Below, one piece after another: positions 21,101 through 31,950 of a stretch of 36,354 nt of DNA. The notes under the pieces were generated by a model. The model was given only the letters and a program-made list of their open reading frames with translations, was not told the DNA's origin and did no database searches. Source of the stretch: Bhargavaea cecembensis (lineage in GTDB: Bacteria > Bacillota > Bacilli > Bacillales_A > Planococcaceae); assembly GCF_000826125.2 (NCBI RefSeq), contig NZ_LN651373.1, forward strand, positions 1,236,733-1,273,086, read 5' to 3'. Position numbers and translations under genes: made by a program. The number at the start of each line of letters is the position of its first letter. The stretch's first letter is position 1.

Positions 21101-21262
21101 CAGTTGACTCGGGAAGCTGACACGTTGTGTATCTAGGGCAAAACGTTGTGTATCTCGAGCAAAACGTTGTGTATCTAAGGCGAAACGTTGTTTATCTTGG
21201 CCAAAACGTTAATTAGCTAAGCCGAAACGTTAATTAGCTGTACTGAAACGCGACAACTTGAC
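21101..21262. repeat. Intergenic tandem array, seven to eight 21-bp units
   Basis: ACGTT anchors lie at 21122, 21143, 21164, 21185, 21206, 21227 and 21248 (the last as ACGCG), exactly 21 bp apart, with a weak extra copy from 21101. The first three units read ACGTTGTGTATCT, the fourth ACGTTGTTTATCT, and the fifth and sixth ACGTTAATTAGCT; linkers are A-rich (GCAAA, GCGAA, GCCGAA). The array lies in the roughly 450-bp gap between the convergent genes ribU and fer. From 20960 to 21100 I see nothing definable beyond an 8-bp inverted repeat (GGAAGAGT at 20978, ACTCTTCC at 21037). Confidence 0.9.
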
Positions 21263-21302
21263 GGGAATAGAACGTCTCTTCTGCGAGAGAGGCCTTAAAT
21301 AA

Positions 21303-21338
21303 ATAAAAGCCGGCCGCCCCCGTGATGGGAGCGGCCGG
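21303..21338 (-). terminator. Terminator of fer (minus strand)
   Basis: On the minus strand CCGGCCGC (from 21338) pairs with GCGGCCGG (to 21310), followed by CTTTTATTT. Confidence 0.85.
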
Positions 21339-21353
21339 TTTCGCGAGCGCGGC

Positions 21354-21605
21354 TCAGCCTTCGTATTTCAGCGGATCCCCGTCGAACGGGGCGTCCGCGG
21401 CTTTGATCGAATCGGTCGGGCAGCCGTTGAATGCGTCTTCCATATCCTCGACGAGCTCTTCTGGAACTTCGGCAGTCCCCGTGTTATCATCAAGGATAAC
21501 AAAGGCCAGCCCTTCATCGTCGTAGTCATATATATCAGGGGCGGCTGCACCGCAGGCCCCGCATGCTATGCAAGTATCCTGGTCAACAATCGTGAACTTC
21601 GGCAT
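21354..21605 (-). CDS. fer: [4Fe-4S] ferredoxin Fer
   Basis: This is a small acidic electron carrier of 83 residues, nearly identical in layout to B. subtilis Fer. Cluster cysteines are Cys12, Cys15 and Cys18 (CIACGACG) plus the distal Cys in NGCPTDSI. In Bacillus it serves a cytochrome P450 and probably other oxidoreductases. A clear ribosome-binding site (AAGGAG) precedes the ATG at 21605 on the minus strand. It is divergent from ypbB. Confidence 0.97.
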
Positions 21606-21647
21606 CGTGGTCTCTCCTTCTCTCTTCTATCCGAACATTCCTCTCTC

Positions 21648-21676
21648 ATTCTAATGCTGTTTTTGGCACTTATCAA
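21648..21676 (-). promoter_or_regulatory. Sigma-A promoter of fer
   Basis: On the minus strand TTGATA (complement of 21671-21676), 17-bp spacer, TAGAAT (complement of 21648-21653). About 40 bp upstream of the fer start. Confidence 0.7.
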
Positions 21677-21707
21677 CCGGAAGAAACTATGGAACTGGAG
21701 GCCCGGG

Positions 21708-29677: not shown

Positions 29678-29679
29678 GT

Positions 29680-29708
29680 TCATATTCGGGCAGATTGAGC
29701 ACAACCTA
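29680..29708 (+). promoter_or_regulatory. Candidate sigma-G promoter for sleB-ypeB
   Basis: TCATA (29680-29684), 17-bp spacer, CAACCTA (29702-29708). Approximates the forespore sigma-G consensus (GHATR, 17-18 bp, CATNNTA). sleB is sigma-G dependent in B. subtilis. Confidence 0.38.
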
Positions 29709-29729
29709 CCGGAGAAAGGAGGAAATGCC

Positions 29730-30518
29730 GTGTATCGCAAACGACCGGGCAGAAAGCCGGCATTGCTTCTCGCACTGCTGCTGGCCCTCATGATCGCCGT
29801 GCCTGCCGGCAAGCAGGCGTTCAGCGAACAGGACATCGCCCGCGGCGCATTCGGTGATGATGTCATTGAACTGCAGGCGAGGCTGCAGTGGATCGGCCAG
29901 TACGACGGGAAAATCGACGGGAAGTTCGGCTACGGGACATACTGGGCAGTCCGCAGGTTCCAGGAAGCGTACGGGCTCCCGATTGACGGGGTGGCAGGAA
30001 GCGCGACGAAAGCCAAACTGTCATCTGTATCAAAATATCATAAACAATTTGTGATGGACAACATTGCGGCCGGCAACCAATTCACCCATTTTGGCGGAAC
30101 GCCTCTGGAGAACCAAGTGAAAAAAGGTGGCGGGGGCCAGTCGGCAAACCTTCCAGCCGGCTACAGCGAGCGGGACGTGCAGCTTTTGGCCAACGCAGTC
30201 TACGGCGAAGCCCGCGGAGAGCCGTATGAAGGCCAAGTGGCGGTGGCGGCCGTCATCTTGAACCGGGTGGAACATGCCGATTTTCCGAACACGGTGAGCG
30301 GCGTTGTCTTCCAGCCGCTTGCCTTTACGGCAGTGGCGGACGGGCAGATCTGGCTGACGCCGAATGAACGGGCGAAGGAAGCCGTCATCGACGCGATCAA
30401 CGGATGGGACCCGACTGAAAACGCGATTTATTACTTTAACCCGGCCACTGCGACGAGCAAGTGGATCTGGTCGAGGCCGCAGATCAAAAAAATCGGGCAG
30501 CACATTTTCTGCTTGTGA
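29730..30518 (+). CDS. sleB: Spore cortex-lytic enzyme SleB
   Basis: SleB is a lytic transglycosylase that breaks muramic-lactam cortex peptidoglycan during germination. The 262-residue product has a signal peptide (about 1-30), a peptidoglycan-binding domain (about 38-97: DDVIELQARLQWIGQYDGKID in two helices, GYGTYWAVRRFQ), a linker, and the Hydrolase_2 catalytic domain (about 145-262) with the presumed catalytic Glu160 in AVYGEARGEP. GTG 29730 has AAAGGAGG at 29715-29722; upstream in-frame starts lie in prsW. It precedes its partner ypeB by 9 bp, the conserved bicistron. Confidence 0.95.
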   Translation: MYRKRPGRKPALLLALLLALMIAVPAGKQAFSEQDIARGAFGDDVIELQARLQWIGQYDGKIDGKFGYGTYWAVRRFQEAYGLPIDGVAGSATKAKLSSVSKYHKQFVMDNIAAGNQFTHFGGTPLENQVKKGGGGQSANLPAGYSERDVQLLANAVYGEARGEPYEGQVAVAAVILNRVEHADFPNTVSGVVFQPLAFTAVADGQIWLTPNERAKEAVIDAINGWDPTENAIYYFNPATATSKWIWSRPQIKKIGQHIFCL

Positions 30519-30527
30519 GGGGTCAAC

Positions 30528-31817
30528 ATGAAAAAACTATTGTTCATTTTAAGTTATGCGACTGTCGCCCTTGCGGTATTCTCCTGGAGTGCCCACGCGG
30601 AAAATGAAAGACTGACGCTTCTTCTCAACGGGCAATACACCGATAAGCTGTCCGAATCGTCCGAGCAGCTGACCGAACTCGAACGGGAAGTCCGGAAAGT
30701 GATCCTGTACCGCGACCCGTCATCTGCAGAAGAGCCGCTCGGGAATATCTGGCGGCTGTCTTCGGAAATGAAGAACAACCTATCGTCGTTGCCGCTCGAC
30801 CGGCATTTCTCCAGCGAATGGATGAACTACCTGACGCGTCTGGGCGACTATGCGGACCTGGCTTCACGCGGGGCGATCCCCCAGGAGAAATGGGAGAAGG
30901 CACTCGGCAATGCGGCGTCGAACCTCGCGGAGTTTTCCGGCGAATGGTCTGCCGCCACGCAGGACATGTTCATCGGCGGGACGGGGCCGGATGAGTGGTT
31001 CGCGCGGATGGAAGGCGACGTTCCGGACAAGCGGTGGACGGATCTCGGACATGCCGTCAAGACGTATGCAGAGTCAGATTTCCCGCTGACTGCGAGCGAA
31101 CACGATGAGCAGAAGAAAAAAGACCTTAAGCACCTGAAAGACGAGCCGGTGGACCGGCAGGAGGCGATCCGTCTTTTCCGTGAATTGTTCCCCGCCTACA
31201 ACAAGGCTTCCGTGCATGTGAGCGAAAGTGGGAAAGACGCAGCCTACCCGTTCTTCCATATCCGATTCCAGGATGGCGTCCGGATCGGCTATGCGGACCT
31301 GACCGAGAAAGGCGGCCATCTGCTTTCGCTGCTCGTCGAGCGCCCGGCCGGCGAAGAAAGAATGACCGAAGCGGAAGTCCGCGAAAAGGCCGGCGAATTC
31401 CTCCGTTCGGCCGGCTATGAAGATCTCGTATTCGAGGAATCCCGCGAAAACACGAACGTCTGGCACCTCTCCTTCGTCCGGGTCGATCCGAAGAACGGCG
31501 CCAAAGTGTTCGCCGACGGCATCCAGCTGAAGCTCGCGAAAGACGACGGGGAAGTGCTCGGCGTGAACGCCATGGAGTACATCCAGAAAGAAGACATCAG
31601 CGAACAGCCCGTCAAACCGTTCGACCCGGACAACTTCTTCACCGACGGCACACAGGTCCACTCAAGCGAACTGGCCTACACGGCAAACCGGCAACTCGTC
31701 CAGCGGCTCTGCCACCTCCTCATCGTCACGAAGGAAATCGGAGGCAGAACAGACACCTACCGCATCATGGTGGACACCGAAACAGGAGAAATCCTCAAAA
31801 GCGAACTCCTCCACTGA
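30528..31817 (+). CDS. ypeB: Germination protein YpeB
   Basis: YpeB is needed for stable incorporation of SleB into the spore. The 429-residue product (B. subtilis 450) has an N-terminal membrane anchor or signal (about 3-24), a helical N-terminal region, and C-terminal PepSY-like repeats (about 220-290, 295-365, 385-429; the last ends YRIMVDTETGEILKSELL). GAGGGG precedes ATG 30528. Cotranscription with sleB is expected. The gene ends just before a 21-bp repeat array. Confidence 0.93.
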   Translation: MKKLLFILSYATVALAVFSWSAHAENERLTLLLNGQYTDKLSESSEQLTELEREVRKVILYRDPSSAEEPLGNIWRLSSEMKNNLSSLPLDRHFSSEWMNYLTRLGDYADLASRGAIPQEKWEKALGNAASNLAEFSGEWSAATQDMFIGGTGPDEWFARMEGDVPDKRWTDLGHAVKTYAESDFPLTASEHDEQKKKDLKHLKDEPVDRQEAIRLFRELFPAYNKASVHVSESGKDAAYPFFHIRFQDGVRIGYADLTEKGGHLLSLLVERPAGEERMTEAEVREKAGEFLRSAGYEDLVFEESRENTNVWHLSFVRVDPKNGAKVFADGIQLKLAKDDGEVLGVNAMEYIQKEDISEQPVKPFDPDNFFTDGTQVHSSELAYTANRQLVQRLCHLLIVTKEIGGRTDTYRIMVDTETGEILKSELLH

Positions 31818-31831
31818 CGCACGGGCGGGAA

Positions 31832-31950
31832 ACGTTTCGTATCTCAAGCGAAGCGTTGTTTATCTCAGGTGAAACGTTGTGTATCTGTGCTGAGACTTTA
31901 ATTAGTCAAGCCGAAACGTTCATAAGCCCGACCGAGGCGTGCCGCATCGC
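31832..31950. repeat. Intergenic tandem array, five to six 21-bp units
   Basis: Unit anchors at 31832 (ACGTT), 31853 (GCGTT), 31874 (ACGTT), 31895 (ACTTT), 31916 (ACGTT) and 31937 (GCGTG) are exactly 21 bp apart. Early units carry GTATCT or TTATCT, later ones TAATTAG or ATAAGC, mirroring the array at 21101-21262. It begins 15 bp after ypeB. Confidence 0.85.

Follow-up and report, generated by a model that had tools for sequence, protein, structure and literature searches.

REP sequences are dispersed short repeats, palindromic and tied to Y1 transposases, whereas LTRR sequences form tandem rows and plasmid iterons are rows of direct repeats of about 20 bp that are read by a protein. In the present study we have analysed arrays of direct repeats with a 21-bp step in a stretch of 36,354 bp from Bhargavaea cecembensis (G000:C3:1236733-1273086, hereafter the window, in a 3.16-Mb genome of four contigs), in which two arrays, A and B, are built from one family of units and a third carries another word. 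These arrays differ from REP sequences, which are palindromic and linked to a Y1 transposase that is absent here, and in contrast to the protein-read rows of plasmid iterons array A has no match in plasmid and phage collections (72,556 plasmids and 50,697 phages).

A literature search, with most subscription journals outside its reach, found a single similar thing, the STAR elements of staphylococci. In the accessible part of their description these are interspersed intergenic direct repeats of a 14-bp word, T(G/A/T)TGTTG(G/T)GGCCC(C/A), at variable intervals and of unknown function, present at 32-39 loci per S. aureus genome and at different places in different species (PMC3532100). With STAR, dispersed intergenic direct repeats are already known in bacteria, and the arrays described here are likewise dispersed and intergenic (55/56). 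However, as far as that account goes, STAR has a single GC-rich word, its copies are at least 40 bp apart and most loci hold just one, whereas the present arrays comprise about a dozen words, an exact 21-bp step (434/442) and several copies per array; nor is the STAR word, as given there, matched by the words of the array families read here. What sets the present genome apart is that many mutually unrelated words share a single rigid format of two helical turns, in which the spacer keeps its length while its letters drift.

The LytTR repeat is 9 bp long, with the consensus [TA][AC][CA]GTTN[AG][TG], and together with 12 bp between repeats this gives a 21-bp step. Sites of the LytTR type are direct repeats that lie mostly 12 bp apart, according to the available part of the source (PMC6193735). 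The present arrays are direct repeats at the same step, as far as the 9-bp repeat length holds, and the family A core AACGTTAAT fits the consensus, with AACGTTGTG missing one position. By eye, A units of the AATTAG class fit it and GTGTATCT units miss one position, and families C, F, J and K show no fit. LytTR operators, in the portion of text at hand, are pairs next to promoters, whereas the arrays here are rows behind genes; a single one of 52 divergent gaps holds an array, which disagrees with a placement upstream of promoters, a matter on which tandem gaps are uninformative. For the geometry, LytTR regulators offer the best precedent, and the arrays may work like their sites without being such sites. 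BldC forms head-to-tail multimers on direct repeats, as stated in the part of the report that is accessible (PMC5859096). Variable numbers of direct repeats are common to both cases, cooperative directional binding being a feature of BldC, but the BldC repeats, as that part describes them, are about 9-10 bp long and abutting, without the 21-bp step of the present arrays.

Arrays of the window and the 21-bp format in the genome

Reading of the sequence and a lag scan of the window confirm that both arrays reported in the first-pass annotation are real and run at an exact 21-bp step. Array A (21119..21247, plus strand) is formed by six 21-bp units of family A, four of the GNNTATCT class followed by two of the AATTAGCT class, and then by a broken seventh unit; the units span 21122-21247, the start being 21119 if the preceding GAC is counted, and the start at 21101 given before covers non-repeat sequence ahead of the array. 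Array B (31829..31933, plus strand) contains five 21-bp units of the same family, three of the GNNTATCT class and then two degenerate AATTAG-like ones, in the order TCGTATCT, GTTTATCT, GTGTATCT, AATTAGTC, CATAAGCC. The internal order claimed to be common to the two arrays thus holds at the level of classes, GNNTATCT before AATTAG, but array B does not start with GTGTATCT as had been described. The third array, of family C (1938..2042, plus strand), has five units of another word, CGAGTGTNATCGGAG, at the same step, and the shared trait is therefore the period and not the word. In the lag scan the best scores at lag 21 were 52/63 (A), 45/63 (third array, at 1936) and 42/63 (B), against top scores of 26-34 at most other lags; the higher scores at lags 18, 30, 33, 36, 39, 54 and 57 are due to a coding region, itself repetitive, around 24.7 kb. 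This region (24275-25114), with strong internal repeats of periods 18, 30, 33 and 36, is the sole coding stretch that also exceeds the lag-21 threshold.

The proposal that the two arrays belong to a dispersed family was borne out genome-wide. With at most one mismatch allowed, a two-unit pattern of family A had 146/107 forward/reverse matches and its reversed form 0/0; with at most two mismatches the figures were 180/128 and 8/6. A sequence-only profile built from 27 three-unit segments (E up to 0.01) gave at least 141 matches with 150 of 508 candidates scored, the list of arrays being a lower bound. At least 52 distinct A arrays were obtained, none of which is mostly coding, in agreement with the intergenic location claimed earlier. 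Exact copies are left out of all counts given as distinct. Marker counts put the completeness of the genome at 99% and its contamination at 6.7%, and identical consecutive blocks of about 1 kb with a single N between them occur at loci such as L119, L126, L190, L213 and L228; these look like unmerged contig overlaps or scaffolding copies rather than true duplications, and consequently raw genome counts are somewhat inflated. An apparent strand bias of family A, all forward on contig C3 among the matches listed, was discarded, as the profile search and the reading of chains show both strands.

In 45 neighbourhoods and the window we read 63 family A chains with 347 units, and removal of exact copies and of one chain with a related word (C3:56162, still counted among the 52 distinct arrays) left 58 chains and 315 units. 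Eighteen of these chains mix the GNNTATCT and AATTAG classes, 36 hold only the first class and four only the second, so that defined 5' and 3' ends are valid for a subset of the arrays and not for all of them. Where the classes are mixed, GNNTATCT precedes AATTAG in 16/18 chains, and the polarity of unit variants is kept to this extent; one exception is a two-unit fragment and the other is array B, a nominal exception owing to its degenerate last unit CATAAGCC, which the rule scores as first class. A figure of 8e-28 for the unit order is illustrative only, since it assumes 18/18 ordered and independent chains, while there are two exceptions and several arrays share flanks. The analysis looked for a genome with only these two arrays, for a random order of variants and for frequent occurrence inside genes, and found none of the three. 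Five A arrays (C1:426437, C3:8233, 10980 and 333956, and C4:110) have a similar 5' flank (approximately TACTGGACGCAAACTT), and some a similar 3' flank too, which makes copying together with the surroundings possible. Arrays of families A and C often adjoin, sometimes in opposite orientation (L127, L134, L137, L144, L151, L154, L160).

The same step was found without any motif. Over 335 kb, made up of A neighbourhoods and the window, a lag scan gave 79 segments at lag 21 and 73 at lag 42, with at most six at any other lag between 12 and 44. In 200 kb of the same genome taken at round coordinates there were 23 segments at lag 21 and 18 at lag 42, and in another 400 kb there were 36 and 31. After removal of exact copies and of any stretch containing over five N, these 600 kb pooled with the window gave 56 distinct segments at lag 21, 47 at lag 42 and at most seven elsewhere (lags 10-60); 55 of the 56 are intergenic according to a codon-trained gene finder built for this analysis. 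By extrapolation the genome would hold about 250-300 arrays. The 47 arrays in the gaps scored below were all assigned to one of 15 provisional labels, and we speak of about a dozen words because these labels derive from the same loci and some are related (A, A-prime and M; N and N2). Example words are GAAACGTTGTGTATCT (A), CGAGTGTNATCGGAG (C), GAATGTTAAGCAAA (H), GAGTGAGCCGCTTT (J), GAATAGATAGAAAG (K), GAGTCGTCCGCAT (F), GAGTGTCAACTTYG (G) and GAATCGAACGATTA (L), and by eye many start with GARWS. The family C pattern gave 56/82 matches genome-wide against 0/0 in the control.

A unit consists of about 13-15 conserved and 6-8 variable bases. Without the step being assumed, the motif-to-motif distance in seven families is exactly 21 in 434 of the 442 distances up to 31 bp, the others being 16, 19, 20 (four times), 23 and 24 bp. 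The information content in family A is 1.65-2.0 bits at columns 4-7, 12 and 14 and 0.02-0.36 bits at spacer columns 16, 17, 19 and 20, and the division into core and spacer (columns under 1 bit) is similar in six other families. Between neighbouring A units (255 pairs) five core columns agree in 98% and four spacer columns in 44%, the spacer columns agreeing in 31% of pairs from different arrays. We estimate that the spacers have accumulated about one substitution per site while hardly changing in length, and letters that have diverged at a nearly fixed length argue for selection on spacing. In family A a unit resembles the next but one more closely than its direct neighbour (0.695 versus 0.667, permutation p 0.028), and the same tendency, with no significance test applied, is seen in 6/6 other families, which points to a 42-bp pair as an additional layer.

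The polarity of units is clear for families A and F and is not general. In family F a modified end unit, GAGTCGTCCAGGTTTTTATTTCC or near, is found in 10/11 arrays, the remaining one running into N, and genome-wide this end unit gave 37/16 matches against 0/0 in the control. By eye, family F lies mostly along the leading strand, like genes. A tail common to about 7 or 8 of 28 family C arrays was seen by eye, its pattern giving only six genome matches with up to three mismatches. A fixed end unit for family H was rejected: AAGAAAG is last in 5/7 arrays, but first or on both sides in three others. At L213:3929-4231 and L241:4537-4749, opposed arrays of the same or a related word share one gap and could pair as a large inverted repeat.

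Position behind genes and occurrence in relatives

Among gaps of 130 bp or more, excluding gaps with N and copied gaps, arrays were found in 15/33 convergent, 26/119 tandem and 1/52 divergent ones (Fisher test, convergent versus divergent p 7e-7, tandem versus divergent p 5e-4). The 52 distinct A arrays comprise 15 in convergent gaps, 17 in tandem gaps oriented with the genes, 14 in tandem gaps against them, two in divergent gaps and four at edges; 17 versus 14 in tandem gaps means no preferred orientation, as for a feature that acts at the DNA level. The array lies within 50 bp of the stop codon at 40 of the 61 gene ends that have one.

By comparison of the YpeB protein of the window, the nearest named relatives are Edaphobacillus lindanitolerans (80% identity) and Bhargavaea species (72-76%), in a scan from which records very near the window may have been omitted. 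No array is present at the B site in Edaphobacillus and five Bhargavaea, where the gap is short and contains what looks by eye like a terminator hairpin. The idea taken from this site, that arrays replace terminators, was rejected because terminators are about equally frequent in both cases: with copies not removed, one lies within 150 bp of 23/32 convergent ends with an array and of 23/36 without, and of 19/29 tandem ends with an array and of 66/101 without. Repeats seen by eye in the gap of the A site in Bhargavaea were likewise abandoned, the lag test ranking 21 only fourth at one Bhargavaea locus.

Genus relatives carry cognate arrays with a different consensus, ACGTTGAYNATCTT, in G007 (27/10 matches versus 0/0 in the control) and G004 (15/12 versus 1/1), with fewer matches in G001 (1/5 versus 1/0) and G005 (3/1 versus 0/0); in G007 and G004 many arrays, by eye, have about five units alternating between two forms. 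No family A-type matches above control were found in 33 genomes outside the genus. In scans of noncoding sequence, for which open frames from 110 codons upwards were masked, 31 loci from the genus gave seven segments at lag 21, two at lag 42 and none at other lags, and 41 loci of other genera gave seven at lag 21, seven at lag 42 and at most one at any other lag, stretches with strong periods of 1-9 bases having been dropped beforehand from these scans and from that of other families. The seven lag-21 segments of the other genera come from five genomes (Psychrobacillus L071 and L076, Metasolibacillus L079, G016 and G018), of genera that NCBI taxonomy places in Bacillaceae or Caryophanaceae, order Caryophanales. 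Arrays of 21 bp built from other words are thus found in some other genera. L188 and L189, which are among the 41 loci, belong to other families and gave no lag-21 segment, and none was found in 55 kb of noncoding sequence from 20 loci of other families within the class, these two included; as about three would be expected at the rate of the preceding scan, a taxonomic restriction is only suggested. The word of G016 matches 273 times in G016 and, among 199 other genomes, once each in two. In G016 the rows L245:11199-11910 and L245:18855-19899 reach about 50 units in two partly alternating forms, the former lying behind a terminator-like hairpin and the latter being traversed by an open frame and possibly coding.

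Proposed protein-binding arrays and alternative explanations

We tentatively propose, as the reading we favour without yet calling it probable, that the arrays are phased direct-repeat sites for head-to-tail DNA-binding proteins. An array would offer a sequence-specific DNA-binding protein several in-phase sites, typically 3 to 10, each with a word of about 13-15 conserved bases and behind it a spacer of 6-8. Through the 21-bp step, equal to two helical turns, all the sites would face the same side of the DNA, with neighbouring protein molecules touching head to tail in a short filament. About a dozen words would imply several recognisers or one recogniser family. The most likely role of such a filament would be that of a marker, roadblock or boundary where one transcription unit adjoins the next, a role of the boundary type being proposed because the arrays lie behind genes, in convergent and tandem gaps and hardly ever in divergent ones. 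From step, words and position we infer protein binding, a filament and a boundary function, and since the explanations by RNA, template, Y1 transposase, reverse transcriptase and coding sequence are disfavoured, we suggest double-stranded sites that stand in a row and are read from a single helix face. Of the options offered by the first-pass annotation, a nucleoid-protein platform, a mobile element or a structured RNA, a protein platform would fit best, judging from the sequence.

Several points weigh against this proposal. No binding protein came out of the analysis, and the three LytTR proteins of the genome (3-4 in the genus relatives, three in most of them) are too few for about a dozen words. 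Words renewed between species would demand fast-evolving recognisers. The similar frequency of terminators with and without arrays leaves a role in termination unsupported, and purifying selection on harmless DNA would also yield a position behind genes. Furthermore, the spacers are not wholly random, neighbours being somewhat more alike than units of different arrays.

The serious rival is that the arrays are selfish or neutral minisatellites, growing by duplication steps of 21 or 42 bp, spread by some route of copying or recombination and surviving behind genes, with a two-turn step that stems from the duplication mechanism and not from function. We regard it as possible, though on the unlikely side. 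Rapid turnover agrees with it, as the array of the B site is absent in Edaphobacillus and five Bhargavaea and the G016 word is almost private, and so do the greater likeness of units two apart, as if duplicated pair-wise (p 0.028 in A; 6/6 other families, no test), and the partly conserved family ends, such as the end unit in 10/11 arrays of family F, as in copied elements. However, neutral decay should hit all 21 columns and the lengths as well, and the core is near-invariant with only 8/442 short steps off 21. Dispersal of some kind is required, and to this extent the mobile-element option stands, but the genome offers neither of the two enzymes considered: the Y1 (RAYT) transposase (PF01797) has no match in G000 or in G001-G007, and reverse transcriptase (PF00078) has none in G000, with some in the relatives G002, G004 and G007. 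Explanations by these enzymes are disfavoured.

Arrays transcribed from gene 3' ends, as structured or protein-binding RNA, are improbable. Their frequent start near the stop codon (40/61 gene ends within 50 bp) would suit such an element, and two of ten folded arrays gave z of -2.66 and -2.31, but |z| stayed below 1 in the other eight, no Rfam match covers the arrays in the window and five loci scanned, and tandem-gap arrays show both orientations relative to the genes in similar number (17 with them, 14 against), which together also disfavour the structured RNA of the earlier proposal. Still less can be said for a 14-base word copied from, or read by, a guide RNA, which would be very improbable: the sharp border between a conserved word and a free spacer is what it would predict, but 45/45 exact matches of the H word and 20/20 of the K word fall within arrays, so that these two families have no single-copy template with the exact word, and the genome has no reverse transcriptase. 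Coding heptapeptide repeats, 21 bp being seven codons, are scarcely credible. One forward frame is open through all units in 36/58 A chains, as short repeats easily allow, and through the long G016 array at L245:18855-19899, so that position rather than stops alone disfavours coding; 55/56 distinct arrays are intergenic, AATTAGCT units have stops in two forward frames, and off-step distances are mostly not multiples of three.

Going back to phased protein-binding sites, a bolder form of the proposal is a chromosome-wide addressing system, which we consider rather unlikely. About 250-300 filament-nucleating arrays per genome, as extrapolated, would then carry about a dozen words, each with its own fast-evolving recogniser, and set boundaries behind genes, in a 21-bp format shared by several genera with words renewed per species. 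The arrays point to one of two things, either proteins of a so far unrecognised class that bind the chromosome cooperatively and sequence-specifically or a mechanism of duplication whose step follows the helix. A lag scan is enough to search any genome for the format, without knowledge of the words.

Genes flanking the arrays of the window

Array A sits in the convergent gap between a gene for a riboflavin-type ECF transporter S component (20318..20899, plus strand; Pfam PF12822 and PF07155) upstream and a ferredoxin gene (21354..21605, minus strand; Pfam PF13370), convergent to the former. Array B starts 11 bp behind the end of a ypeB-like gene (30528..31817, plus strand; TIGR02889 below cut-off, Pfam PF14620) and is followed by cmk, for (d)CMP kinase (32040..32720, plus strand; TIGR00017, Pfam PF02224). 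A flavin mononucleotide (FMN) riboswitch at 20041-20172 precedes the transporter gene, an ordinary arrangement.

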